This document shows, one piece after another, positions 13,057-27,470 of a DNA stretch of 41,005 nucleotides. The position numbers and the translations under genes are program-made. Source of the stretch: Fibrobacteraceae bacterium (GTDB taxonomy: Bacteria > Fibrobacterota > Fibrobacteria > Fibrobacterales > Fibrobacteraceae); the NCBI GenBank assembly GCA_017631885.1, contig JAGBSH010000008.1, positions 1-41,005 on the forward strand. The letters run 5' to 3'. The notes under the pieces were generated by a model. The model worked only from the letters and a program-made list of their open reading frames with translations. It was not told where the DNA came from and ran no database searches. Numbering within the stretch: the first letter of the stretch is position 1; each line of letters begins with the position of its first letter.

Positions 13057-14232
13057 ATGCTAATTTCAAAAGTTTTAAAACATACATTGTTTGGCGTTCT
13101 GCTTTTTATTTTGTGTTCTTATGCAGACCCAAAGATATTTCAAGAATCTTCTAGTATAAAGTCTAGAGGTAATGTTTCTTTGCAACCTAATATAGCAGAA
13201 TCAGCAATAGATTCTCTTTATGAATTGGGGCCTGGTGATTTTTTAGACATCTTTTTAGAGAACGCTTATTTTTCAGTGCAGGTAAATCCAGACCAAACCA
13301 TTATTATAGATGAAGTTGGCGCGATTGAAGTTGGTGGCAAACCATTTTTTGAAGCTAAGAAAATAATTCTTGAAAAAATAGGAACCCGTTATGATGCGCG
13401 TTATTGTTATGTGCAATTATCAAAATTGAAAAGTTTTAAAATCAATGTAATGGGTGCTGTAAGTAATGCAGGACAATTTATTATAGAACCTCAGACACGA
13501 TTAAGCACATTCTTTAGAAACATTAGCGGATTTTTGCCGGTTTCTGATTTAGAAAATATTTTGTTGATTCGTGATAATGATTCTTTGAGAATTAATTTAG
13601 AAGAAATTTCAAGGGAAGGAAAACTTGAAAAAGATTTAATCTTAAAACAAGGTGATTTCTTTTTTGTCCCTTATCAGGAATATACAGAAGTTGTAACACT
13701 TGCTTTGCCAACAGCAAGAAAGGCTTTGGCTTATAAAGAAGGAATGACTATTAGAGATTATTATGTAAAAGCCTTTGGTAATAATATTGAAAATGGTGGT
13801 TACCTTTCTTTGTTAGTGAAAGATTCTTCAGGAACAGAAAAGCGTGTTCCTGTAAGTTCAGCAAGTGTTATAAAACCAACTCCAGGAATGGAAATTTCTT
13901 TTATTGATGAAAGAGGAACAAATGAATTTGTTTATGTTGGTGGTGCTGTTGCTGCAATGGGAAAAGTCCCATACAATCCAGATTTTAAAGCCTTAGATTA
14001 TATCGCAGCATCTGGTGTTACACCAATTACTGGTTCTTGGGATCAAGTTCGTGTTGTGCGAGGTAATAGAAAAACGTTGGACGTTAATGCCACAGAAGAC
14101 GCTATTTTACCGGGGGATTTTATTGAAATTCCTAAAAGCACTTATGAATCGTTCAAAGATTTTACGATGTTTTTAGCATCGCTATTAACAGTAGTTTCTT
14201 CGTCTTTTATTCTTTATATGAATTATAAATAG
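13057..14232 (+). CDS. Wza-like polysaccharide export protein (Poly_export/SLBB)
   Basis: The 391-residue protein starts with a signal peptide (about residues 1-22; VLLFILCSYA then DP). The Poly_export domain follows at about residues 50-130 (LYELGPGDFLDIFLENAYF, VNPDQTIIIDEVGAIEVGG). SLBB-like repeats come next (INVMGAVSNAGQFIIEP; FVYVGGAVAAMGKVPYNPD). A hydrophobic C-terminal helix (about 368-388) could be the outer-membrane segment, as in Wza. The FILC sequence is not a good lipobox, so lipidation is doubtful. The neighbouring Wzz-like and Wzy-like genes support export of a surface polysaccharide. Confidence 0.85.
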   Translation: MLISKVLKHTLFGVLLFILCSYADPKIFQESSSIKSRGNVSLQPNIAESAIDSLYELGPGDFLDIFLENAYFSVQVNPDQTIIIDEVGAIEVGGKPFFEAKKIILEKIGTRYDARYCYVQLSKLKSFKINVMGAVSNAGQFIIEPQTRLSTFFRNISGFLPVSDLENILLIRDNDSLRINLEEISREGKLEKDLILKQGDFFFVPYQEYTEVVTLALPTARKALAYKEGMTIRDYYVKAFGNNIENGGYLSLLVKDSSGTEKRVPVSSASVIKPTPGMEISFIDERGTNEFVYVGGAVAAMGKVPYNPDFKALDYIAASGVTPITGSWDQVRVVRGNRKTLDVNATEDAILPGDFIEIPKSTYESFKDFTMFLASLLTVVSSSFILYMNYK

Positions 14233-14233
14233 T

Positions 14234-15430
14234 ATGGAACAAAAAGAAAATTTATCGTTGTTTGAATTATTGCTTAAGGTGTTGAACAATAGCTTAAGGC
14301 ATAAAGCCTTATTTTTATCGATAGTTCTTTTACCAACACTTGCTATGTTTATTGTAGTAATGTGGGTAATGAAACCAGTATTTGCTGCTGAAGCAATTGT
14401 TACTCCTCCATCAGGGAAATCTTCTATTGGTAGTTCTTTAGGGAAAATGCTTGAAAATGTTTCAGGCCTTTCTTCTGTTTCTTCGCTTTTAGGTAGTGAA
14501 GATCAAGCAACAAATATTGTGTGGACATTTTTTAATTCTTGGCAATTACATCAAGAAGCGATTGAAAAATTTGGAATTCGAGAACATTATGAATTTGATG
14601 GAAAATATCAAGCAGACCTCTTAAAAATTTTCAGGAAAAATTTGACGCTTGAATATAATGATGAAAATATGTTTTATTTGCGCTTTGAAGATGAAGATTA
14701 CAAACTAGCAGCGCAAATTCTACAATTTATTTTAACAAAATCTGATTCTATGTACAATGCTTACAATACGAATCAAGCGAAGCAATCAAGAATTTATATG
14801 GATGCTCGCCTAAAAGAAGTTGAACATAATTTAGATTCCTTAGAAAAAGTTTTCACTAAATTTCAAGCTGAAAACAATTTGTATGACCCAGAAATACAAT
14901 TAGAATCAACCGTAAAATATTTAGGCACTTTGCAATCAGAACGAGATGCATTAGTGCAAGAAATTTCGTATGAAAAAATGCAACGAGGTGATCAAACAAA
15001 ACGGTATGAAGAATTGTCAAGCCGTTTAAAATCTTTAGATGCCTCTATAGCAGAGGCAATTAAAGGTAAACGTAATAAAATGGGTGTATTGGCTTTAAGT
15101 AAAACGCCAGATTTAACGGCGCAATATTTGAAAATAGAAAGTGAATTAAAAATTCAACAGACGATATATAAATTTCTTAGACAGCAAAGTGAACAGTTGC
15201 GTTTAGATGAAGTGAATAAGCCAACGAACTTAGTTGTTTTGCAACCACCTTGGGAAAATGACAAAAAAGTGCGTCCAGGTCGTAGTGTTATATTAGCATT
15301 CACTATGTTGTTGTCAGGCTTGTTTGCTGTTGTTATTTGTAATTTCATTGAATTTATGAAAAAGCTTCCTTCAGATTCTTCTATTTCAAGAGAATTAGGA
15401 AATTTAAAATTATTGTTGAAAAAGCATTAG
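14234..15430 (+). CDS. Wzz-like polysaccharide chain-length / co-polymerase protein
   Basis: The 398-residue protein has the two-helix layout of the Wzz family. The first transmembrane segment is at about residues 26-47, and a long periplasmic part contains coiled-coil stretches at about 190-290. A proline-rich segment (VVLQPPWENDKKVRPGRS) leads into the second transmembrane segment at about 350-370. There is no C-terminal Walker A/B tyrosine-kinase domain, so it is the kinase-less type. A partner kinase is not in this window. It follows the Wza-like gene by 1 nt, implying joint expression. Confidence 0.82.
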   Translation: MEQKENLSLFELLLKVLNNSLRHKALFLSIVLLPTLAMFIVVMWVMKPVFAAEAIVTPPSGKSSIGSSLGKMLENVSGLSSVSSLLGSEDQATNIVWTFFNSWQLHQEAIEKFGIREHYEFDGKYQADLLKIFRKNLTLEYNDENMFYLRFEDEDYKLAAQILQFILTKSDSMYNAYNTNQAKQSRIYMDARLKEVEHNLDSLEKVFTKFQAENNLYDPEIQLESTVKYLGTLQSERDALVQEISYEKMQRGDQTKRYEELSSRLKSLDASIAEAIKGKRNKMGVLALSKTPDLTAQYLKIESELKIQQTIYKFLRQQSEQLRLDEVNKPTNLVVLQPPWENDKKVRPGRSVILAFTMLLSGLFAVVICNFIEFMKKLPSDSSISRELGNLKLLLKKH

Positions 15431-15459
15431 AAATTAAAGTTCTGATTTAGAGGTTTGAC

Positions 15460-16785
15460 ATGTTGGAAATCATGCAGGATTACGGTGTAAGCATTGCATG
15501 TTTTTTCGTAGTTATTTTATGCCTATTTCAGACATGGATTTTAAAGAAAGATTTTTTTCGTCCAGCCAATATTTATGTTTTTACTCAAGCACTTACTTTA
15601 GGCGTTGCTTATTTAAAATTAAATACAGCCATGTCTGATTTTAGACCTTTAACATGGATTGTTTGGATTGGGGCTATGGTTTCTTTTTTATTAGGGACTT
15701 TAACATTTTCTTTAGTTTATCCTAAAGATCAGGCTTTTAAAGATTCTTCTAAAAAATGGTTACCGGATACAATGGAAAAGAAATATGATTGGTATAAGCA
15801 TTTTTATTTAACTCTTTTCTTGTTTGGTGTTTTTTTATTAGGCGTTATTGGTATGGTAGCTAAAGTCGGCACCTTGATTGTCTTTGCAAAAGATGTTACG
15901 AAATGGGTTTCTTCAGAAGCGAATTATGGAGTGTTTTCCATTTTTGTTATGTCATCGCCATTGGTTGTTTTATTCTCTGGAGTCGCATCTTTTAAATCGA
16001 TAAATCCTTACAAGTTGATTCGTATAAGTTGTATTGCTATTAGTTTTGTTACAGTTGTTTTAGCGTTGTTAGCTTATCCAAGTAGAACATCGCTTTTTTT
16101 AAGTGTAGGTATTCTTTTTATTTTGTTTAATTATTTGAAAAAGAAAATATCAGTTTCATTTATTGTTGTTACGCTTTTTTTAGCAGTAGCTCTTTTTATA
16201 AGTGTAGCTGTTGTTCGCTCTCAATATGGTGGGCGTTCTTTAGAAGGAATGGCTATTGATAGAGTGGTTTCTATCCCTTATGATTATGTTGCGAATAATT
16301 ATTGGAATTTAGATTTTATGCTAAATCCAATGTCAGATAGGGAAAAACACCCTTTTACCTATGGGATAGATGCTTTTCATGGGGTGTTTGAATTTACAAT
16401 GTTACCTGGCTTAATTCGAAATTATTATGGCTGGGATAATGCATTTAACAAGAGTGTTCAAAAAATTCCAGGTTATAATACAACAGGCTATCTTTGGGAA
16501 GTGTATAAAGATTGGGGAATATTTGGTATAGCGTTATTTCCATTTTGTATAGCGTTTTTAATTTCGTTTCTTTATGAAAAAGTACATAGAACCAAAACAC
16601 CATTGTTGTGGATGTTATACGCCTTATTCCTTTACCATTTAGGTTGGTGGTTCTTTACTGCCGGGTATAAATCAGGGCTGTTTTGGTTGTGGATTTATGC
16701 GATTTTTATTTTCGGGAAACTTTGCGAGAAACGAATAGTCTCTAAAATTAAAGAGACAAAGCATGACAAAGTTTTGGTGGAATGA
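15460..16785 (+). CDS. Wzy-like oligosaccharide repeat-unit polymerase (multi-pass membrane protein)
   Basis: A 441-residue integral membrane protein with roughly ten hydrophobic segments. A larger periplasmic loop lies at about residues 255-345 (RVVSIPYDYVANNYWNLDF, GIDAFHGVFEF, PGYNTTGYLWEVYKDWG). This layout and the YKDWGIFGI segment resemble O-antigen polymerase family proteins. Its placement after Wza- and Wzz-like genes supports polymerisation of an exported glycan. Sequence identity in this family is always low, so the call rests on topology and context. It converges on the minus-strand gene at 16798 with a 12-nt gap. Confidence 0.72.
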   Translation: MLEIMQDYGVSIACFFVVILCLFQTWILKKDFFRPANIYVFTQALTLGVAYLKLNTAMSDFRPLTWIVWIGAMVSFLLGTLTFSLVYPKDQAFKDSSKKWLPDTMEKKYDWYKHFYLTLFLFGVFLLGVIGMVAKVGTLIVFAKDVTKWVSSEANYGVFSIFVMSSPLVVLFSGVASFKSINPYKLIRISCIAISFVTVVLALLAYPSRTSLFLSVGILFILFNYLKKKISVSFIVVTLFLAVALFISVAVVRSQYGGRSLEGMAIDRVVSIPYDYVANNYWNLDFMLNPMSDREKHPFTYGIDAFHGVFEFTMLPGLIRNYYGWDNAFNKSVQKIPGYNTTGYLWEVYKDWGIFGIALFPFCIAFLISFLYEKVHRTKTPLLWMLYALFLYHLGWWFFTAGYKSGLFWLWIYAIFIFGKLCEKRIVSKIKETKHDKVLVE

Positions 16786-16797
16786 TTTTTGTGAAAG

Positions 16798-17763
16798 TTA
16801 TTTGAAAAATTTTAGAATTTTTTCTGTATAAATTTTCCGGCCTTTAGAAGATAGATGAATTCTATCTTGGAAAGATTCTGGATCGTCAGAGTTAAAAGGA
16901 ATCATTTTTTCTAAGTAATTAAAAGAAGAATCCTTTTGTTGCATTTGATTGGCTGTTGATTCTGAAATTAAAAATTCAACGCGATTTGTTTTTGCTAATT
17001 CAATATATTCTGTCATGACTTGAAGGTAATTGGAATCAGTCGCTATTTCAATATATTTTGGAGTTTCTATCAGCACAAGGTTTACGTTGTGTTTTTTACA
17101 AAGGTCAAAGATTTTAAGCAAAGCATTTTTTTGTTCTTTTCTAAAAGAAAAATCTTCTATAGCAACAGGAGGTAAACTTCTGATTAAACTATCCGTACTC
17201 CCTGGGCTAAAAGCAGTATTACCGCCACGGAGGTATCGATTGTCTGTTAGTTTTTTGTTTAGAGGCCATGTCCATAAAATTTCATTATTGGAGGAGACAA
17301 ACATCTGGAATAGTTCTTGTAAAGAGGCGTTACCGGTTTGTTTTAAAATATTCCAAAATTCTTTTTTTGTTTTTAAATCGGTGTGTAAAAATAAACGTTC
17401 ATCACTTACTTTTGGAGAAACTACAACAGAGTAAGCATACATATCTAAAAAGAGAGTTTTTATTTTAACATTGTTATTCAATAAAGATTCTAAAATAATC
17501 TTTTCCCACACGGGTTGATTGCCATTATAAGCTAATATCCATGAAGTTCCTGGCGATTTTTCTTCTAATGCAAATATGTCTATGCCTTGTCGAAACATTG
17601 AAGAACCGACAAATAAATTTTCTGCAGAGGCTGTTTTAGAAATTAAAGTCTGAATTCCATAAGGAGAATTTTTAGTGAGTAGTCGTGCAAATTCATTTTT
17701 TAACAAGAGCGCGATAGCACATAGCAATAAAACGAAAAGAAAAATTTTTAAAAGTTTTTTCAT
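16798..17763 (-). CDS. SGNH-type membrane-anchored acyltransferase partner (AlgJ/DltD-like)
   Basis: The 321-residue protein has one N-terminal transmembrane segment (about 5-21) and an extracytoplasmic SGNH domain. The nucleophile block is FVGSSMFRQG at residues 51-60, and the Asp/His pair is DRIH at 300-303, followed by LSSKG. It starts 9 nt downstream of an MBOAT gene on the same strand. This is the arrangement of known two-protein O-acylation systems (AlgI/AlgJ, DltB/DltD, PatA/PatB). The inferred role is to complete transfer of an acyl group, perhaps acetyl, to the exported polysaccharide. Acyl donor and acceptor are unknown. Confidence 0.75.
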   Translation of the reverse strand: MKKLLKIFLFVLLLCAIALLLKNEFARLLTKNSPYGIQTLISKTASAENLFVGSSMFRQGIDIFALEEKSPGTSWILAYNGNQPVWEKIILESLLNNNVKIKTLFLDMYAYSVVVSPKVSDERLFLHTDLKTKKEFWNILKQTGNASLQELFQMFVSSNNEILWTWPLNKKLTDNRYLRGGNTAFSPGSTDSLIRSLPPVAIEDFSFRKEQKNALLKIFDLCKKHNVNLVLIETPKYIEIATDSNYLQVMTEYIELAKTNRVEFLISESTANQMQQKDSSFNYLEKMIPFNSDDPESFQDRIHLSSKGRKIYTEKILKFFK

Positions 17764-17772
17764 TTTTAATCT

Positions 17773-19146
17773 CTAAAAGTTGGCATAAAGGAATGGCGAG
17801 TTCCCTGTCTGGCAAAAAAGGAATACACAAAAAAGTTGTATAGTAAAGAATAAAAGTTCTTTATCTTTTCCTTTTTCTTGTAAGTATTCTTGTGAAAATA
17901 AAATAAAGACAAAAGCAAGAGTAGTTAAAAAATGAGCTATACAAGTATTGGAATAAGTAAAGGGGAGTAAAGAGTTAGAAATGGTTGAAACGCTAATGTT
18001 AAAATCACAAATTAAATGGGAAAGGAATTGCAAAAGTTTTGGGGCTGAGTCAATTTTAAATAAAAGCCAACCAAAAAGAACAATAGAGAACGTTAAAAGA
18101 AAGGCTAGTATTTTAAGAGGTTTTTTAAACATCTGAGGGTCTTTTCTTGGAGTTAAAGTATTAAAAACGCCATGCCATATTCCCCAAAGGATAAAATGTA
18201 AGGCACTACCATGCCAAATACCGCAAGCGATAAATGTTACTAGAGTATTGAAATGTTGTCGTTTTTTACCAAGGCGATTTCCTCCAAGAGGAATGTAAAC
18301 ATAATCTCTTAACCAAGAAGATAAAGAAATATGCCAGCGCCTCCAGAAGTCTCTAATGTTTAACGCAAAATAAGGGCGTAAAAAATTGTCTTTGCATGGG
18401 ATTCCAAACATTTTGGTAAAGCCAACAGCAATTTCAGAATAACCACCAAAGTCACAATAAAGTTGTACTGCAAATAAAAGTAAAGCAAGTAAAAGAGCAA
18501 AAGATGGGTAAGCTTCTGGAGTCGCAAATATGGCGTTGACATAAGTTCCGATTCTATCAGCGATGACTACTTTTTTAAACAAGCCTGAAACAAGAAGTAA
18601 AAATCCTTGTTTGAATAATTCTGGGTTATAAGCAATACCTTTTTTCAGAGGTTCTGTGATGGTTTCAGAACGGACAATAGGCCCACAAATCAAATGCGGG
18701 AAAAATGAAACGTATAATGCATAAAAAGTAAAAAATGGTTCGGAGGAACGTTTTTGTTTGTAGATATCAATAAGATAACTAATAGTTTTAAAACTATAAT
18801 ATGAAATCCCTAGCGGTAAAAGGATTGATTTGAAAGAAAAAGAAAATTGCTCTACAAAAAAGTTAAAATATTTAAAGAATCCTAAAATAGTCAAAACAAA
18901 AAGAATGCCTAAAATTAAAAATTTCTTGGCTTTATTTTGTTCTAAATTAGCTTCAATCTTTTTACCAAGATAAAATGTAAAAATGATTTCAATGGCTAAA
19001 AGTGCAAGAAATCGAACGTCACATAAGGCATAAAAAGCAATGCTTGAAAAAAGTAAAATTAAGGGCCTAGCCTTTTTGGGGACGGCATAAAATAAAGCTA
19101 AAACAAAAAAGCAAAAAACTAAAAACAAATAAATGCTAAATGGCAT
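17773..19146 (-). CDS. MBOAT-family O-acyltransferase (AlgI-like)
   Basis: A 457-residue polytopic membrane protein with the MBOAT hallmark RDFWRRWHISLSSWLRDYVY at about residues 265-284 (His272) and the catalytic-type histidine in GIWHGSALHF (His312). A second WHG follows at His325. Other family marks are PLGISYYSFKTISYLIDIY and CDFGGYSEIAVG. MBOAT proteins pass acyl groups across the inner membrane to surface polymers. The SGNH protein directly downstream is the expected partner. It is divergent from the gene at 19244, with about 97 nt between them. Confidence 0.9.
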   Translation of the reverse strand: MPFSIYLFLVFCFFVLALFYAVPKKARPLILLFSSIAFYALCDVRFLALLAIEIIFTFYLGKKIEANLEQNKAKKFLILGILFVLTILGFFKYFNFFVEQFSFSFKSILLPLGISYYSFKTISYLIDIYKQKRSSEPFFTFYALYVSFFPHLICGPIVRSETITEPLKKGIAYNPELFKQGFLLLVSGLFKKVVIADRIGTYVNAIFATPEAYPSFALLLALLLFAVQLYCDFGGYSEIAVGFTKMFGIPCKDNFLRPYFALNIRDFWRRWHISLSSWLRDYVYIPLGGNRLGKKRQHFNTLVTFIACGIWHGSALHFILWGIWHGVFNTLTPRKDPQMFKKPLKILAFLLTFSIVLFGWLLFKIDSAPKLLQFLSHLICDFNISVSTISNSLLPFTYSNTCIAHFLTTLAFVFILFSQEYLQEKGKDKELLFFTIQLFCVFLFCQTGNSPFLYANF

Positions 19147-19243
19147 AAGGCTAAATATAAAAATTACAAAGCTTTTAGATTTTTAGTGTTTTATTCAAGT
19201 ATGTATTTTCTAAAGTTTTCAAAGGTTTTCTATTTTAAACGTT

Positions 19244-19855
19244 ATGTTGTTTCGCAAAGTATTGCTGATTTGTAGTTGTTTATTTTCTTTTAGTTTTTTT
19301 AGCTGTGGCGTTCAAGAAGAAACGTCAGAGATTTGTTTTGTAGGGGATTCTATTACAAGACTTTGGGATTTAGAATTTTATTTTTCGGGGAGAGATATTC
19401 ATAAGCATGCCGTGAGCGGAGCAATTATTGAAGATGTTGCTAAATGGGATACCAAAGATTGTAAAGGCATTCCGACAGTAATGCTTATTGGGACGAATAA
19501 TTTGATATTAGGTATGGAAAACGATACTTTGACATCTGTTTTTATAGATGATTTTATTTCAAAGTATATTCATCAGGTCAAAGAATTTAAAGCAAGTACT
19601 TTTTATGCTGTTTCTATTTTACCAAGAAATTTTCTTTGGAAACAAAACAAAAAAATAAATGAAGAAATCCAAAAGCTTAATGAAAAATTAGAAGGAGCTT
19701 TAGAAGCCTCAGGAGTTTCTTATAAATTTATTAACTTGCATGAATATTTTTTATCTGGTAAAAATGAAATTGAAAAGGATTATTATTTTGATGGATTGCA
19801 TTTGACTCAAGAAGGCTATGAAGTTTTGAGTTGGTATGTTGAGGACGCATTATGA
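19244..19855 (+). CDS. SGNH/GDSL hydrolase, probable lipoprotein
   Basis: The 203-residue protein has an N-terminal hydrophobic leader ending SFFSC (Cys21), a plausible though not ideal lipobox. The SGNH blocks are complete: FVGDSIT (Ser36), a glycine in the second block, GTNN in the third, and DGLHLTQEGY (Asp183, His186). It is probably an extracytoplasmic esterase. Next to an MBOAT/SGNH pair, it may remove or edit acyl groups on the polysaccharide, but that is inference. It overlaps the next gene by 4 nt (ATGA), so the two are likely cotranslated. Confidence 0.78.
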   Translation: MLFRKVLLICSCLFSFSFFSCGVQEETSEICFVGDSITRLWDLEFYFSGRDIHKHAVSGAIIEDVAKWDTKDCKGIPTVMLIGTNNLILGMENDTLTSVFIDDFISKYIHQVKEFKASTFYAVSILPRNFLWKQNKKINEEIQKLNEKLEGALEASGVSYKFINLHEYFLSGKNEIEKDYYFDGLHLTQEGYEVLSWYVEDAL

Positions 19856-20460
19856 AAAAGAAAATTTTGTTTATTTTAATTTGTCTATTTCTTTTAAATC
19901 CTGTTTTGGCAAAAGAAAATCAATTTTTTGCTGGCATGCGAAATGAACGTTATGCTTTTATTGGCTTACAAACAAAGTATCGTTTTGGAATAGCTTTAGA
20001 AAATTCAGTCTTAGTTCAAAAGCCTAAAATTCAATATGTGCGTTTTTCTCCATATTATTTGCAAGAGTTTTCTTTTGGATTAAATCTTTCATACGCTTTG
20101 TATGGCGGATTCCGTTATGATTTAGATTTTTTTGATTTAGGCGCTAGATTAAATGCAGAATATTTATTGCATAATCAATATTTTCATTTGCTAGGGATTT
20201 TTCAACCATTTTATGATAGCGATTTAGGAACAGAACTTACTTATCTAGCAGGGTTTAGAACTTTTTTCTTGAAAGAAATCGGTTTTCAAGGTGTTATAAA
20301 AAATCTTCCTGAATACAGAAAGTCCGAACATAGAGTGGCTTTGGGTTTGATTTTTAAAACGGAACGTCTTTCTGTTTTGCCTGAGATTTCGACTCCATTA
20401 GATGGGCAAAGTCCATTAACTAGAGTTTCCGTGTCATTTCTTTATTCATTGCCTTTCTAA
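19852..20460 (+). CDS. Small exported protein, possible outer-membrane beta-barrel
   Basis: I do not recognise the family. The 202-residue protein has a clean signal peptide (MKKKILFILICLFLLNPVLA, then KEN). The rest alternates polar and aromatic residues (YAFIGLQTKYRFGIALE, FSFGLNLSYALYGGFRYDL, VSVSFLYSLPF) and ends in Phe, which together suggest an 8- to 10-strand barrel. It overlaps the SGNH gene by 4 nt, and its end overlaps the end of the convergent flippase gene by 4 nt (20457-20460). A role in polysaccharide export or modification is only implied by position. Confidence 0.6.
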   Translation: MKKKILFILICLFLLNPVLAKENQFFAGMRNERYAFIGLQTKYRFGIALENSVLVQKPKIQYVRFSPYYLQEFSFGLNLSYALYGGFRYDLDFFDLGARLNAEYLLHNQYFHLLGIFQPFYDSDLGTELTYLAGFRTFFLKEIGFQGVIKNLPEYRKSEHRVALGLIFKTERLSVLPEISTPLDGQSPLTRVSVSFLYSLPF

Positions 20461-21692
20461 AGAACAAATCGTTTATTTTTCAAAGCATCAATAATTAGCA
20501 GGAGTGTAAATAAAATATCTCCTGATAAAACGAATAGAGGGGCGTTTTCTACCCCGAAATAGGAAATTCCTAAATAGCAACAAATGATATTGAATGTGCC
20601 ACCAATAGAAATTAAAAGGACGTATTTCCAAATAAATTTTTCCTTTAACAATAGAGAAATACAAGGCATACGAATGGCTTGGAATATGAGAGAACACGCA
20701 AGAACTTGCAAAACAAAAGCGGAATATTTTAATACATCAGGCGTCCAATTGGCAGCAAAGAAAAGTAAAGACAAAATCTTCTGTGGAAAAAGGAAAATAG
20801 GGAGAGAACACAACGTAATAAAGAAAACAAAAATAACTTGATCTTTAAAATGTACTTTAGAATCATTTTGCTTATGTAATGAAATAAGAGAAGATGAAAT
20901 AAAATGTACCATGAAGCCAGAAGCTAAAACAATTAATTTATTTGCATAATTGTAGGCGCTTAAAAGAGAGGGCGGGGCAAAGTAATCAACAAAATAAAGT
21001 CCAATAGGTAGGTAAGCAAAACTAGCAAGACTGGCAAGTGCATAAGGGAAGGCAGCTTTATACATTAAATGAATAAAACGGAATGTTCTTTTTGAAATAG
21101 TAAAAATTTGTTTTTTAAAAGCATGCGAAACGCCAAACGCCCAAGCGGGTAAAGCGGCTAGCACCATACAAAAAGCGATAGCTTCAATGGATTCTAGTTT
21201 TAGATAAATTAAAGCTATTCCCATAACGGAGGCGTAAGAAATAGCATGAAGAATTTTTGAAATAAGTAATTGTTTCCAAAATGCACCACAAGTAAAATAC
21301 CAATCAAAAAAAGCATGTTGTAGAATTAATCCAGGGATTAAAATCAATTCTCCACAAAATACAGGATGGTCTTTTCGGATAAAAAAGGCAAATAGCAACA
21401 TTCCTAATGCTGTAGCAAAAGAAGCAAAAAATCTTAATTGGATAATTTGTGTAAATAGTTTTCCTTTCACAGCCCGATTTGCAAAAAAGGCTAAAATAAG
21501 AGTAGTCATTCCAAAATCAGCTAACGCACAAAAAATCGTATAGTCGTTTTGTAAAATTCCAAAAAAACCATAGGATTCGTTCCCAAGATTTTTAGCAATA
21601 AAATTTTGAACAAGAAATGCGGTGCCTTGTATTAGAAGGTTTACAAAAGAAAGAAAAACGCCTATTTTGATGTTTTTAAAAACGGCTAACAT
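20457..21692 (-). CDS. Wzx-like oligosaccharide flippase (MATE/MVF superfamily)
   Basis: A 411-residue protein with about twelve hydrophobic segments. Its N-terminus (LINLLIQGTAFLVQNFIAKNLG-type, then ESYGFFGILQNDYTIFCALADFG) is typical of polysaccharide-synthesis flippases that turn lipid-linked repeat units across the inner membrane. It completes a Wza/Wzz/Wzy/Wzx-like set in the block, although it is on the opposite strand from the first three. No transcription terminator is evident in its tail-to-tail overlap with the small barrel gene. Confidence 0.78.
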   Translation of the reverse strand: MLAVFKNIKIGVFLSFVNLLIQGTAFLVQNFIAKNLGNESYGFFGILQNDYTIFCALADFGMTTLILAFFANRAVKGKLFTQIIQLRFFASFATALGMLLFAFFIRKDHPVFCGELILIPGLILQHAFFDWYFTCGAFWKQLLISKILHAISYASVMGIALIYLKLESIEAIAFCMVLAALPAWAFGVSHAFKKQIFTISKRTFRFIHLMYKAAFPYALASLASFAYLPIGLYFVDYFAPPSLLSAYNYANKLIVLASGFMVHFISSSLISLHKQNDSKVHFKDQVIFVFFITLCSLPIFLFPQKILSLLFFAANWTPDVLKYSAFVLQVLACSLIFQAIRMPCISLLLKEKFIWKYVLLISIGGTFNIICCYLGISYFGVENAPLFVLSGDILFTLLLIIDALKNKRFVL

Positions 21693-21882: not shown

Positions 21883-21907
21883 AAACCTCGGGCAAAGCCC
21901 GAGGTTT
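21876..21907 (-). terminator. Rho-independent terminator of the VTC/DUF4956 operon
   Basis: An 11-bp perfect stem pairs 21883-21893 with 21897-21907 around a 3-nt loop. Its GC-rich core reads GCCCGAGG. On the minus strand it is followed by TTTCTTTTTTT-type sequence across the stem base and beyond. It lies about 10 nt after the stop of the minus-strand lamin-tail lipoprotein gene. Confidence 0.93.
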
Positions 21908-21916
21908 TAAAAGGTT

Positions 21917-23494
21917 TTATTTTTCTCCAGGTGTTGGGAGGTTTGCCTCCCAAGCAGCTGGATCACTTCCTGGCATTGAGAAATCGGCGCGGTGTAAACT
22001 CATTCCCATACCGTCTGCTTCTTCAGACCAAAGGCCATCATCAGAATAAAGAACAGCGTCGGACCAGCGGTAACACCAGTCAATTCCGTTTGGCTTTGTT
22101 AAATCTTCTACAAAAGCATAAGGTTCTTTAACAAGGATTTGTTCACCACGGTTAGAAATTTTTCCAGAATATTTTTGCAACACAACATTCTCGGCAAGTG
22201 TCGAAGCATAAGCATCTAAATCCAAAATGCTTGTATCCGGAAGCATTAACAAAAGGCCACCAGCAGGGATTTTAATGGTTTCAAGAGCCGCTTCTCCAAG
22301 ACCGCTAATTTCCCAAACGCCTGATTTGCTACCAACAGGTAATGAGAGCGCTACAGCAGAATCTGCAGTGTTTATGATTTCAATAAATTCAATTTGACCT
22401 TCTGGAGGGTTGTAGAAAATTTCATTTACATAAAGAGGCCCAGAAAGCATTTCCGAAACATTCTTTTTACCTTTTGTGTCTGATTTTAAAGAGCCTTGCA
22501 TAAGAGTGCCGTCAGACAGTTCTAAAACACCTGCTGTACCAGAAGGAGTTGCTGGGTATTCAAGGCCTGTTTCAGAATTTGTCCATTTGCCGTCAATAAA
22601 TTCTCTTAAATAAAGATTTTCGCCACGGCGAAGTAAAAGTAAACTTTCGCCAAAAACGCTTTGTTCTAAAACTAAGAATCCATTAGCAGGCACAACAGTT
22701 CCGGCTGGAATCGTTAAAGTATCAGCACGACGTTTGGCAATTAAAAGCCAACCAGAAATATCGGCATCTGCTTTTCCAGAATTATAAAATTCAATCCAGT
22801 CATTAGAACCGTCTGTTGGAGCGACTTCATTAATACGAATCGTTAACGGAGCGTAAACTTCATCTTCGCCAGAACCAGGGTTTCCGCCTAGTTTTTTACT
22901 TGCTGCCCAATTTGTTGGCATAGAAGCGTTTCCGCCAAGGTAAACCAAAGAAGCTCCTTCTCCATCAGCAAGACTTGGCCATGGAGGAGTGTTATCAAAG
23001 GAACAATCAACGTCGCCGGCTCCTCTTAATTTTACAGAAACAACATCGCCACCATTTGAAAGTTTTTCAACATAGCCTTTGTTATCTGTGTTCCAAGGGC
23101 CAAACAAGCGGCCATTAAAATCAGGGTAAGCTTTTTTGAAGGCATCAAGGTCACCAGTTACAACAATGTGTTCCCCTTTTTTCAATGCTTCTTCTGGGAA
23201 GTTGTATTCTACAGCGCCGTCTAAACGGAGTTCTGAAAGAGCCATGTTTTCAATGTCTTCGCCATCTTCAATAAAAATTTCTACCCATTCTACAGTAGAA
23301 TCTGGGTGGTGGTACATAATTTCGGAACAAGCCATTTGAGTTAAAGTTGACTCCGTATTTGGCTTATCGTTATTTTGACCACCTTCGCCACTAGAGGCAG
23401 AAGAACTAGAAGAATCATCGCTACTACAAGCTGTCAAAGCTAAAAAGCCAAAACAAACAAGAGCACTAATTAAAGAAAGTTTAGGGTGTTTCAT
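21917..23494 (-). CDS. Lipoprotein with three lamin-tail-like (LTD) domains
   Basis: The start is the ATG at 23494, which has GAAGGAG just upstream. Earlier in-frame starts (TTG 23518, ATG 23509) lack a spaced site. The 525-residue product has a lipobox LTAC at about residue 20-23, then a Ser/Asp-rich linker. Three similar domains follow, each opening with a strand like CSEIMYHHPDSTVEWVEIF, RINEVAPTDGSNDWIEFYN or VNEIFYNPPEGQIEFIEII. These match lamin-tail (LTD) Ig-like folds. In other bacteria such domains occur with CotH-type kinases and VTC proteins. No CotH motif is seen here. As last gene of the operon it may be the surface-exposed end of the system. Confidence 0.8.
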   Translation of the reverse strand: MKHPKLSLISALVCFGFLALTACSSDDSSSSSASSGEGGQNNDKPNTESTLTQMACSEIMYHHPDSTVEWVEIFIEDGEDIENMALSELRLDGAVEYNFPEEALKKGEHIVVTGDLDAFKKAYPDFNGRLFGPWNTDNKGYVEKLSNGGDVVSVKLRGAGDVDCSFDNTPPWPSLADGEGASLVYLGGNASMPTNWAASKKLGGNPGSGEDEVYAPLTIRINEVAPTDGSNDWIEFYNSGKADADISGWLLIAKRRADTLTIPAGTVVPANGFLVLEQSVFGESLLLLRRGENLYLREFIDGKWTNSETGLEYPATPSGTAGVLELSDGTLMQGSLKSDTKGKKNVSEMLSGPLYVNEIFYNPPEGQIEFIEIINTADSAVALSLPVGSKSGVWEISGLGEAALETIKIPAGGLLLMLPDTSILDLDAYASTLAENVVLQKYSGKISNRGEQILVKEPYAFVEDLTKPNGIDWCYRWSDAVLYSDDGLWSEEADGMGMSLHRADFSMPGSDPAAWEANLPTPGEK

Positions 23495-23533
23495 GGAAAA
23501 CTCCTTCATAGAATACAAGGAATATACTTTTTC

Positions 23534-24364
23534 TTAATCGTTTCTGGCAAAGTCCCCGGCAAGATTTGTGTAATTTGGAGCCCTAAAACCTCTTGGATTT
23601 TCGTAAATTCGTTGCCATTCGGCCGCGGCATTTCCAAATTTTGAGAAACCAGCTAGTTTTAAGTTTAAGGCGTGTATTAAATCCATCATCCAGTAAGGAA
23701 CTTGAGAGCATGGACACTTTAATTCAAGAACAGCATCACAACCTGGCGCAAAAAAGCGTGGGAGTCCAGTAGAGTGCATATAATGAGGGTCAACGGTATA
23801 ATCAAAACCGTTTTCTTCTCGGAATCGCATACAAGTATCAATAGTTACTCGAGAATACTCTTCGGTAGTACTAAACCAAGCGCGCCTTTTATATTGAGTC
23901 AACAATCTTGGGCTTGCGTTAAAAGTATTTACTTTGTACAAATATTCTTCTAAATATTGACGATCACGTTCACTTTTAACAGGCCACTTTTCTTTTGGAT
24001 TTTCAAAAACAAATGAAGGATTTTCGCCCTTAATAGTTGCTCTACTTTTAAAACAAATGTTTCTTATTTTTCTTTTGACTTCAAAATGAAAAGTGCCTTT
24101 AGGGTCTGGGTGTTCACCATAAGTTCTGATTCTCATATTGAAGCGGTCAAGAAGTCTTGCATTTCTCCATTTTAAAAAGGTCCAATTAGGAGAATCTAAA
24201 TAAAGATTCGTTATCCAATAAAAACCACCAGGAGTAATTTTGGAATAATAATCTTCTTCACAATAAGGAGAAATCATTTCACCGATAATGTCAGCCCATT
24301 CCACAGGGATGTGGTATTTCAATTCAAAACGTTCAAGAAGACTAAAACCGCGGGCTCCGGCCAT
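23534..24364 (-). CDS. VTC-domain polyphosphate polymerase
   Basis: The 276-residue protein is a stand-alone VTC tunnel domain without membrane helices. The expected tunnel residues are visible: ERFELKY at 11-17, NMRIRTYG (Arg78, Arg80), FHFEVKRK (Lys97), QYKRRAW (Arg160/161), SRVTIDT (Arg172), VLELKCP (Glu214, Lys216) and FSKF (Lys242). In yeast Vtc4 the matching residues bind the growing polyphosphate chain, the phosphate donor and the metal. So the protein is probably catalytic in the cytosol, making polyphosphate from ATP. It begins 1 nt after the TolC-like gene. Confidence 0.85.
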   Translation of the reverse strand: MAGARGFSLLERFELKYHIPVEWADIIGEMISPYCEEDYYSKITPGGFYWITNLYLDSPNWTFLKWRNARLLDRFNMRIRTYGEHPDPKGTFHFEVKRKIRNICFKSRATIKGENPSFVFENPKEKWPVKSERDRQYLEEYLYKVNTFNASPRLLTQYKRRAWFSTTEEYSRVTIDTCMRFREENGFDYTVDPHYMHSTGLPRFFAPGCDAVLELKCPCSQVPYWMMDLIHALNLKLAGFSKFGNAAAEWQRIYENPRGFRAPNYTNLAGDFARND

Positions 24365-24365
24365 T

Positions 24366-25685
24366 TTATTTTCCCACTTTAAAATGAGTTGAAATATCTG
24401 GAGAGGCTAATTTACCTGCATAGTCTAAAAGAATCAGATAGCGAGAATAAATTTCATATTCAAGTTGTAATGCCTTAATTTCGCTTTCTAAAGAAACATC
24501 ACGAGCGCGTAATAGTAAAAGAGGGTCAGAACCAGAACGAGCCGCAAATTCTTTAAAGACATCGCCGGCATCAACGCGTTCAACAAAATTTTTCTGGACA
24601 TTTCTCTGAGCTATTAAGGCAAGAGTTTCTTCGCGAAGGCGAGCGACTTTTTGAGTGATACTGCGTTTTTCATCAAGGTAATCACTTTCGGCTTCAAGAA
24701 CATCAAGTTGTCTTTTGGTTTCGTCTCCACCATCTGTTCCAAAAAACGGCAAGCGAAGCGTGAGTGTTGCGTAAAATTTATCTCGAGTTCTGCGATCGTC
24801 GTCTTTGCGAGTGATTTCCCATTTTTTATCAGCAACGGCTACTTTGTTTTCATAATCATAAGAATAAGTTCCTGTTTTTACAGAATCATATTCATAAGAC
24901 CCAAAAGAGTGTTTGTAACCAATGCCTATCGAAGAAAAAATTTTATTTGAACTTGTGCGTTCTTGTTCATATTGCTTTGATTCTACATTCCATTTATGTT
25001 TTGCCATTGCCACAGCAGAATAAGTGTCATCAACAAGTAAAGGGTCTTTTAAAAGGTTTTCAATATCTGAAATTTTAGGTAAAAAACTTGTATCTAAAGC
25101 AACAGAATCAAAATCAATCCAAGAATGGAATTTCATTTCAATATCGCGAAGAGCATTACTATCAGCAATAAGTTCTGCTTGCAATTCGGATTCTCTTTCA
25201 AGAGCACTGATTAGATTTTCTGGGTTAAATGTTTCGCTGCCGCTTTTCAAATGTAAAACTTCTAATCGGTCTTTGTTTACGGCAGCCATATCCAAATGTA
25301 ATTGTTGTTTGCGTTTTTGTGTAAGGTAACGCAATGCTCTTTCATAGCGTTCATAAACAAGAAAAGAACGATAAAAATTAGCACGACTTTGTTGGTAAGA
25401 ACTTTGGGCTTTCCAATATTCTTCAGTACTTGAACCTTCACCAAAAACTTTTGGTTTAAACCTGAGTTCAAAATCGTGTTCCATGAAACCAAAACCATCA
25501 AGTTTATATTGAAGTTCTAAACTATTCCAAAGTTTTGTTGATGTTCCTGATTGTATGGCTTTTCTCTTTTTTTCGCCTGCTTGAACAGCAGGTTCGGTTT
25601 CTACGGAAGATATTAAACGTTCAAAAGTCAAAGGCTCTGCAGCTAAAGGCAAAGCGCACAATAAACCAAATAATATTCGTTTCAT
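24366..25685 (-). CDS. TolC-family outer-membrane channel protein
   Basis: The start is the ATG at 25685, preceded by GAGG 6 nt upstream. A longer frame to 25751 would run into the HlyD-like gene. The 439-residue protein has a signal peptide (MKRILFGLLCALPLAAEP) and two long helical halves with coiled-coil character, separated by beta-strand-rich segments (SIGIGYKHSFGSYEYD; FYATLTLRLPFFGTD). This is the TolC plan of hairpin plus barrel strands, repeated twice. It lies between an HlyD-like adaptor and a VTC polymerase, with no ABC or RND pump nearby. Confidence 0.78.
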   Translation of the reverse strand: MKRILFGLLCALPLAAEPLTFERLISSVETEPAVQAGEKKRKAIQSGTSTKLWNSLELQYKLDGFGFMEHDFELRFKPKVFGEGSSTEEYWKAQSSYQQSRANFYRSFLVYERYERALRYLTQKRKQQLHLDMAAVNKDRLEVLHLKSGSETFNPENLISALERESELQAELIADSNALRDIEMKFHSWIDFDSVALDTSFLPKISDIENLLKDPLLVDDTYSAVAMAKHKWNVESKQYEQERTSSNKIFSSIGIGYKHSFGSYEYDSVKTGTYSYDYENKVAVADKKWEITRKDDDRRTRDKFYATLTLRLPFFGTDGGDETKRQLDVLEAESDYLDEKRSITQKVARLREETLALIAQRNVQKNFVERVDAGDVFKEFAARSGSDPLLLLRARDVSLESEIKALQLEYEIYSRYLILLDYAGKLASPDISTHFKVGK

Positions 25686-25717
25686 TTTATCCTCGTATCC
25701 GTAACTTTTTAAACGTT

Positions 25718-26785
25718 TTATTTTTCTTGGGAATTCAATAGATTTTTCCAATCAGGTAATTCTGAAATAGAAACCTTTTCTCCAAGTAAGAATCCACTAT
25801 TTTCTGGAATGGCTACATTAACTTCGCGACCATAAAGTGGTAAATCTGGAGATTTCAAAAGTCTCAAAGGAAACGGAACAATCTGGCTACTCATGCCGAT
25901 GATTTTCCCGCGGACTTTTGCGTGTTGGCCAAGAGAAGTTACTTCTACTTCTGCGCCCACTTGGATTTTATTGTGCAAGTTTTCGTGCAAGTAACCGCGA
26001 ACTTGAGATGGTTCTTTACGTGTAAGAGTCATAATTGGGTTAAAAGAAGAAACTTTTTCACCATCGCGGGCAAGAACCGTTGCTACAACCCATTCACCTT
26101 TAGCTAGGATAGTTTGTTCTTTCATTTCTTGTTCTAAACGAGCTAATTCATCATGTAAGATTTTAGCTTCAGAGGCGTTAGATTGGGCTTGTTTTCCTTT
26201 ACTACCTCTTAAAAGTCTAATCTGAGTAGCGGCATTAGCTTCTAAAACAGATAATTCTTTTTTCATGCTTTGAATACGAGAAGCCATAGCATCGTTTTCG
26301 CTAGAAGGGCCTTCGCCAGAGAGAGATTTTAATCTTTTAGCAATGGCTAAATTCTGCTTGTATTCAGTTTCCATTTTTTGAATTTCAAATCGTAATGTGT
26401 TGCGTCTTGTGTCTAAATCAGCTTGGATTTCTGCGACTTTTTGGTCAACACTTGCCATAGAAACGTTTCCACGACCTTCAAGAGCATCAAGTTCTCTTTT
26501 AACTTCGTTTATGCGTAAGGCTAAATCTGGGCGACTTAATTCAATGAGGGTGTCGCCGTCTTTGACTTCTTCGCCTACTTCAACATGTAACTTAATAATT
26601 TCTACAGCAGAAGGAACGCTAATGGTTGTTGCAGAAGCTTCTGCAATGCCACTAAATAAAACGTCGCTTCCTTTTGTTACATAAGAGAAAGAAACTATTG
26701 CAGCAACGGATAAAATCCATGCACAACCCATCTTTTTAGAAACTATTGTTTTCTTGTCAAAAAAAGCATGTAATCTTTCAAACAT
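25718..26785 (-). CDS. HlyD-family periplasmic adaptor (membrane fusion protein)
   Basis: The start is the ATG at 26785 with GGAG 8 nt upstream, overlapping the end of the DUF4956 gene. The 355-residue protein has one transmembrane segment (about 22-38). A lipoyl-like half-motif follows (VEIIKLHVEVGEEVKDGDTL), then a helical hairpin at about 90-220 and the second lipoyl half (ILAKGEWVVATVLARDGEKV). A beta-barrel domain follows (VRGYLHENLHNKIQVGAEVEV). Such proteins bridge an inner-membrane transporter to TolC. Here the only inner-membrane partner in the operon is the DUF4956 protein. Confidence 0.85.
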   Translation of the reverse strand: MFERLHAFFDKKTIVSKKMGCAWILSVAAIVSFSYVTKGSDVLFSGIAEASATTISVPSAVEIIKLHVEVGEEVKDGDTLIELSRPDLALRINEVKRELDALEGRGNVSMASVDQKVAEIQADLDTRRNTLRFEIQKMETEYKQNLAIAKRLKSLSGEGPSSENDAMASRIQSMKKELSVLEANAATQIRLLRGSKGKQAQSNASEAKILHDELARLEQEMKEQTILAKGEWVVATVLARDGEKVSSFNPIMTLTRKEPSQVRGYLHENLHNKIQVGAEVEVTSLGQHAKVRGKIIGMSSQIVPFPLRLLKSPDLPLYGREVNVAIPENSGFLLGEKVSISELPDWKNLLNSQEK

Positions 26786-26786
26786 A

Positions 26787-27470
26787 TTACATCTCCGTGA
26801 CAGCATCTTGCATCATAAAGTTTACATCAGAAATGCCTTCAATAGCAGAGAGAGAAGCTAAAACTTCAGCTGCAGGGTGGCGTCTTGCAAGTCTTACTTG
26901 GTAAGCGACATCCATTCTTTTTCCACCATCTACTTCGCGCATTGTTATAAGAACGAACGTTCGTATATTTGATTTCATTACTTTTTCAACGGCTAGACGA
27001 GCTTCACTTTCATTTGGCATAGCAAAGCGTAACATACCATCATAAAAATGTCTTGTTCCAAGACCAGTTCCACTTAAGATAAAAGCAACGATACAGAAAG
27101 CAAGAGTGCCGCCTGCGGCAACGCCCCAAGCAAAAACACCGCAGCCGATTCCTGCGCCAAGAGCTGCAAATAAGAACATGATATCGCGCGGGTCTTTAAA
27201 ACTGGTTCTAAAGCGCACAATGGAAAGAGCACCTAGCATACCAAGGCCTCGACCGACATTATCGCCAATGGCTTGCATTACAGTTGCAGAAACAACGGTT
27301 GAAAGAACTAAGGCTTGGACAAAGTTTCTTGAATACGAAAGGCCTTTGAAGGTTTTTTCGTATGTCCATCCGATTGTAGATGAAAGAACAAAGGCTAGTA
27401 ATAGCGTATAAATCATAGTCACCAATGTGGGGTGAGCTACGCTAGACTGGATAGCCATTAAATCAAGCAT
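26787..27470 (-). CDS. DUF4956 integral membrane protein, first gene of the VTC operon
   Basis: The 227-residue protein has about four transmembrane helices in its first 135 residues, then a soluble C-terminal domain (about 150-227) with ferredoxin-like character. The loop GLGMLGALSIVRFRTSFKDP and the following RDIMFLFAALGAG are the DUF4956 hallmark. The family has no established function, but its genes are often found beside VTC-domain genes. GGAG sits 7 nt before the ATG. I infer that it is the inner-membrane path or scaffold for the polymer made by the VTC protein. Confidence 0.88.
   Translation of the reverse strand: MLDLMAIQSSVAHPTLVTMIYTLLLAFVLSSTIGWTYEKTFKGLSYSRNFVQALVLSTVVSATVMQAIGDNVGRGLGMLGALSIVRFRTSFKDPRDIMFLFAALGAGIGCGVFAWGVAAGGTLAFCIVAFILSGTGLGTRHFYDGMLRFAMPNESEARLAVEKVMKSNIRTFVLITMREVDGGKRMDVAYQVRLARRHPAAEVLASLSAIEGISDVNFMMQDAVTEM

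Follow-up and report, generated by a model that had tools for sequence, protein, structure and literature searches.

A VTC-DUF4956 operon with its own HlyD-TolC conduit: a candidate exporter of polyphosphate in many bacterial phyla

The window analysed here is the whole 41,005-nucleotide stretch of contig JAGBSH010000008.1 from a Fibrobacteraceae bacterium (GenBank assembly GCA_017631885.1). It contains a five-gene operon in the order DUF4956-HlyD-TolC-VTC-LTD, in which a protein of the VTC (triphosphate tunnel) family is encoded beside a membrane-fusion adaptor and an outer-membrane channel, without a pump. Linkage of VTC to HlyD and TolC was found in every testable locus of one VTC clade spread over many phyla. 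The evidence leans, by a small amount, towards the operon being a synthesis-driven exporter that carries polyphosphate across the whole envelope. A wider proposal, on which we are evenly divided, is that the operon stands for a whole class of tripartite exporter, widespread and so far undescribed, in which a polyphosphate polymerase and DUF4956 take the place of the pump and which is dedicated to the secretion of polyphosphate by bacteria.

VTC was found in 121 of the 151 genomes of the phylum Fibrobacterota, at loci of two kinds: DUF4956-HlyD-TolC-VTC-LTD, and a VTC-DUF4956 pair with an OprP-like porin and a CotH kinase after it. When 84,980 species genomes were scanned with the VTC subfamily of the window, the HlyD/TolC-type locus was returned outside Fibrobacterota as well, from Desulfobacterota, Bdellovibrionota, Gammaproteobacteria, Nitrospirales and other groups, including the complete chromosomes of Desulfonema magnum, Desulfoluna limicola and Bdellovibrio bacteriovorus. 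To avoid selection by subfamily, a second search was performed using the Pfam VTC model alone. VTC was detected in 27 of 144 genomes of Bdellovibrionota (the phylum of B. bacteriovorus), six of 198 of Desulfobacterota (the phylum of D. magnum), nine of 369 of Gammaproteobacteria (the class of Crenothrix) and two of 198 of Nitrospirota. The 40 loci fetched from this search comprised 18 with both HlyD and TolC beside VTC and 22 with neither, reproducing the two-way split in these four groups.

A tree of 158 VTC domains has two changes of the HlyD/TolC label, compared with 41.6 in shuffles, and one clade of 111 rows holds every locus with HlyD or TolC. The sole member of this clade without them lies at a contig edge. 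The split was supported at 99/97 in a careful mixture-model tree of 60 rows, to be read with the long branches of the second group and the many metagenome-assembled genomes in mind. Gene content was compared for loci with full flanks (at least 5.5 kb upstream and at least 3.5 kb downstream known; 83 in the clade and 32 in the rest of the family), using hidden Markov models that were grown from the window's own proteins. HlyD and TolC were each present in 83/83 loci of the clade and DUF4956 in 82/83, whereas outside the clade HlyD and TolC were each found in 0/32 loci of the family, DUF4956 in 32/32, CotH in 28/32 and a porin in 14/32. Within the clade the core genes occur in four different orders. 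A linkage that holds at every one of the 83 loci open to testing, in a single VTC clade that spans many phyla, is far beyond chance, and in this clade it is obligate. The initial annotation had read VTC, DUF4956, HlyD and TolC as one unit without a classical pump, a reading that the linkage across phyla and the four gene orders strongly support; it had also named VTC genes without HlyD/TolC in nearly all relatives as an outcome that would speak against it, and the clade contains none among its full-flank loci. The only such locus without a detected DUF4956 (L108) has the order HlyD-VTC-TolC. An apparent TolC-VTC fusion in locus L049 was rejected because its upstream part has no match to the TolC model and looks like an out-of-frame stretch, and VTC starts at its own methionine.

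The Pfam match of the window's VTC protein to PF09359 covers the whole domain (positions 2-232 of 235), and the VTC profile matches yeast Vtc4 at 1.2e-7. In 20 relatives the counterparts of Vtc4 R264, R266, E279, K281, K294, R361, R373, E426, K428, S457 and K458 are invariant, and the counterpart of R253 is arginine or lysine in those inspected. The intact tunnel residues claimed at first reading were thus borne out at eleven Vtc4 positions but not at that of K455, which is not conserved. This pattern favours a polymerase, short of proof. Neither SPX nor DUF202 was found by Pfam, which detects only VTC in the VTC protein and only DUF4956 in the membrane protein. PPK1 and PPK2 were not found in the host genome, which is 98.8% complete, and VTC is consequently the only recognised candidate polyphosphate polymerase there.

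The HlyD alignment is conserved; the protein has an N-terminal transmembrane helix and both lipoyl and barrel domains, and its hairpin motif, N-x2-L-x3-L-x-S, recurs, exactly or as a close variant, in 17 of 21 relatives. TolC is weak by sequence, and a structure was modelled in AlphaFold2 from 46 relatives (pLDDT 87.8). All 42 PDB matches of this model at E<=0.001 are TolC/OprM-family channels, which settles the marginal PF02321 call: the modelled protein has a true TolC fold. No ABC, MFS or RND pump was detected by Pfam in the operon of the window, and none recurs near the other operons in neighbour clustering within about 6.5 kb and a Pfam scan of 110 neighbour proteins, where the neighbour table lists the 25 commonest of 91 families and single occurrences may be hidden. 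The absence of a pump remarked on in the initial annotation thus holds locally. ABC genes near five operons were considered as partners and rejected: they comprise the Pst importer group, one convergent gene, a single large exporter downstream of the operon in L161 and others that are not adjacent, and none recurs. Genes on the opposite strand begin immediately after the four core genes in B. bacteriovorus.

DUF4956 is the sole integral inner-membrane protein common to both VTC groups. Its AlphaFold2 model (pLDDT 77.4) has five predicted helices followed by a C-terminal ACT-like domain. R86 and R88, in the loop between the third and fourth transmembrane helices, are invariant across both groups, and R48, R74, K92 and R95 are additional basic residues conserved in the HlyD/TolC clade. 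From the positive-inside rule we infer a cytosolic position for the loops with R48 and R86-R95, on the side at which a chain coming out of VTC would enter. The entrance of the yeast Vtc pore is lined by basic residues (PMC9911596).

In the mechanism that we propose, VTC would lie on the cytosolic face and polymerize phosphate from ATP, as its homology to Vtc4 and its residues suggest. DUF4956 would take the growing chain through its conserved basic loop and pass it across the inner membrane, and HlyD would dock DUF4956-VTC to TolC, such that the polymer leaves the cell without free passage through the periplasm. The energy would come from polymerization itself, as proposed for yeast VTC, so that neither an ATPase nor a proton-driven pump would be needed. 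The product would be dealt with by parts that vary with lineage: in most phyla a beta-propeller on HlyD, in Fibrobacterota the LTD lipoprotein and in several groups CotH kinases.

Several observations weigh against export of polyphosphate by this route. Triphosphate tunnel enzymes also include hydrolases and cyclases, and hydrolase members of the superfamily have an acidic patch where Vtc4 carries basic residues (PMC4641920). In S. intermedius, no aggregation phenotype was reported when the VTC gene SIR_1593 was deleted (PMC12345266). No PDB match of the DUF4956 model is to a channel, its recognizable part being the ACT-like regulatory domain; HlyD lacks the classical RLS tip motif, and a pump encoded elsewhere could still serve HlyD and TolC. 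On our reading of the alignments, three of the four acidic-patch positions are basic in this VTC, in favour of a polymerase, and one is acidic; this residue, E14 in the N-terminal motif, is typical of hydrolases. We know of no close relative with a measured enzymatic activity. That VTC is the sole polyphosphate enzyme holds for the window genome but was rejected as a rule for all hosts, as PPK1 is present in 11 of 20 tested hosts outside Fibrobacterota and in 18 of 61 sampled Fibrobacteraceae, most of which are without it. Linkage to pst-phoU, described below, was seen at one locus in one genome only.

The alternative that survives best is that VTC-DUF4956 serves another surface product, through export of a different phosphate-containing polymer or supply of polyphosphate or phosphoryl groups to CotH kinases, surface proteins or glycans. 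In its favour, CotH kinases are found with VTC-DUF4956 in most sister-group loci and in 17/83 loci of the HlyD/TolC clade, and polysaccharide-export and flippase genes lie close to the operon in the window. We nevertheless regard it as unlikely: in 66/83 full loci the scanned flanks contain no CotH, the neighbour clusters and Pfam scan show no recurring glycosyltransferase next to the operon, and the Vtc4 polymerase residues are conserved. A Pel linkage of the window operon was also rejected, the search for PelF in the host genome giving only sub-threshold GT4-like matches (best 47 bits against a cut-off of 100).

Less probable again is a scheme in which DUF4956 is an MgtC-like regulator, the polyphosphate made by VTC stays inside the cell and HlyD/TolC, under the same control, serves as a vent for phosphate, metal-phosphate or another solute. 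The evidence on a relationship of DUF4956 to the MgtC/SapB family is mixed: its ACT-like C-terminus has PDB matches that include, weakly, the C-terminal domain of MgtC, and the DUF4956 of one relative matches the MgtC Pfam model PF02308 at 2.4e-7, but profile comparison of DUF4956 with MgtC in hhalign gave a probability of 8.9% only. A tripartite vent would still require an inner-membrane pump, and none recurs; linkage in every full locus points to a physical partnership.

We think it very improbable that an unlinked ABC, MFS or RND pump uses HlyD/TolC, with regulation the only thing that the pair shares with VTC. The adaptors nearest to this HlyD are of the EmrA/MdtN type (NCBIfam matches down to 3e-16), whose usual partners are MFS-type or related pumps, and TolC channels can be shared between pumps, but such a role would have to accommodate the confinement of HlyD/TolC to one VTC clade across phyla and four gene orders, with no pump recurring in the flanks.

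The phosphate theme of the initial annotation gained support from the genes around several loci. In a Nitrospirales genome (L126:2720-13011) a DUF4956-HlyD-propeller-TolC-VTC operon overlaps pstS and continues with phoU, pstC, pstA and pstB; Pst as a general partner was rejected, as it is present at this locus only. Phytase-like proteins (E about 1e-44 to 1e-46) are encoded directly downstream of VTC in methanotroph relatives (L130:8836-10494 and L134:6636-8285), a Na/Pi cotransporter follows VTC in L050, and the sister group has OprP-like porins. The same genes, the porins among them being uptake porins, would suit an inward route in which polyphosphate is scavenged or phosphate recovered and VTC is a polyphosphatase. 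We hold this to be the least probable of all the readings since no importing TolC-HlyD conduit is known and the Vtc4 K294 and K428 positions are invariant lysines, as in the polymerase. PPDK-type ATP-binding genes adjoin some HlyD/TolC-type operons; two such PPDK_N (ATP-binding phosphotransfer) genes, in different phyla, are at L046:13385-15475 and L096:2861-4801.

Of the accessory parts, a beta-propeller with weak phytase-like/DUF3616 matches was found in 52/83 full-flank loci of the clade, in most phyla as a gene that separates those of HlyD and TolC or as a part joined to the HlyD C-terminus; it was not detected in the Fibrobacteraceae loci, and the initial annotation could not have seen it. 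In L059, L060, L046, L092, L104 and L147 the HlyD proteins are about 570-740 residues long with the propeller (phytase-like/DUF3616) as a fused C-terminal domain, and in L064 and L090 HlyD and the propeller are separate genes. The lamin tail domain (LTD) lipoprotein is constant in Fibrobacteraceae that have the HlyD/TolC-type operon and was found in 31/83 full loci overall, which makes it a lineage-specific accessory and the propeller the commoner extra part. Co-occurrence of all five genes, proposed as a check on the initial annotation, was accordingly upheld for HlyD/TolC and, at all but one locus, DUF4956, but not for LTD. Possible regulators of the operon, encoded repeatedly in its vicinity (L103, L060, L098, L099, L136, L154 and others), are response-regulator/adenylate-cyclase-like proteins and histidine kinases.

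The features of the operon in the window are given in Table 1. The intergenic gaps are 1, 32, 1 and 39 nt in transcriptional order, and a lipobox LTAC and an AAGGAG site were read in the sequence of the LTD lipoprotein gene. Pfam and the sequence confirmed five tightly packed genes with one terminator, as first annotated; the LTD lipoprotein had been described as having three domains, where Pfam detects two LTD stretches. Genes neighbouring the operon differ between genera. In the window, positions 13057-21692 beside the operon hold Wza-like and Wzz-like genes, an MBOAT acyltransferase, a GDSL esterase and a flippase, an apparent polysaccharide cluster.

Table 1. Features of the VTC operon in the window, with Pfam scores and cut-offs
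Feature	Position	Strand	Details
DUF4956 inner-membrane protein	26787..27470	-	227 aa; PF16316 50.2 bits (cut-off 30.6)
HlyD-type membrane-fusion adaptor	25718..26785	-	355 aa; PF13437 31.4 bits (cut-off 22.2)
TolC-family outer-membrane channel	24366..25685	-	439 aa; PF02321 24.3 bits (cut-off 22)
VTC (triphosphate tunnel) domain protein	23534..24364	-	276 aa, soluble; PF09359 110 bits (cut-off 23)
LTD (lamin tail domain) lipoprotein	21917..23494	-	about 525 aa; PF00932 75.5 bits (cut-off 34.3)
Intrinsic terminator closing the operon	21883..21907	-	11-bp stem, then CTTTTTTT (T tract)

Surface polyphosphate has been reported for Neisseria. The operon offers a concrete candidate for polyphosphate secretion by bacteria of many phyla, cultured species included. 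If the proposed export is correct, polymer synthesis in place of a pump would power a tripartite envelope exporter, a role would be given to DUF4956, whose function is unknown and which accompanies VTC in Gram-negative and Gram-positive bacteria, and bacterial VTC proteins would be linked to the mechanism of the yeast vacuole. A 2020 paper noted that no active mechanism of polyphosphate secretion had been described for bacteria (PMC7423913). We found no description of a VTC-HlyD-TolC system in the open-access literature, where three papers only name DUF4956, although one may exist elsewhere.

The closest systems for comparison include the second kind of VTC locus and the accessory genes linked to pel. 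Loci of the second kind share the VTC and DUF4956 pair and also belong to outer-membrane bacteria, but their VTC falls on the other branch and a porin takes the place of HlyD/TolC; the OprP/OprO-like porin may be an alternative outer-membrane route. Nine of these loci (L037, L038, L054, L055, L070, L083-L085 and L088) encode a Cthe_2159-like protein, VTC, DUF4956, an OprP/OprO-like porin and a CotH kinase. In streptococci, clostridia and bifidobacteria, cotH, VTC, DUF4956 and DUF4832 accessory genes are linked to pel (PMC7112168, PMC12345266). These have the same VTC-DUF4956 core, often with CotH, but adjoin pel genes, lack HlyD/TolC and occur in hosts without a TolC-type outer membrane, which is what a role of HlyD and TolC at the second membrane would predict.

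The yeast vacuole VTC complex (Vtc1/Vtc3/Vtc4) couples polyphosphate synthesis to translocation (PMC9911596), and the bacterial operon resembles it in its tunnel-domain polymerase residues, in a membrane partner with conserved basic residues and in that synthesis could drive translocation. It differs in lacking an SPX domain and a DUF202 membrane domain, in having DUF4956 as the membrane partner, and in a putative onward route via HlyD-TolC across a second membrane. Synthase-dependent export of exopolysaccharides (cellulose, alginate and Pel) likewise couples synthesis at the inner membrane to an outer-membrane export protein, using a glycosyltransferase and a TPR-barrel protein where a phosphate polymerase and HlyD-TolC are predicted here. 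The EmrAB-TolC, MacAB-TolC and HlyBD-TolC exporters draw on the same adaptor and outer-membrane channel families, with an MFS, ABC or RND pump in the position that the polymerase and DUF4956 would occupy. Because the defining feature of each nearest family fails (a pump, SPX/DUF202 or PelF), we file the system, on its sequence features, as a kind of its own with a putative function.

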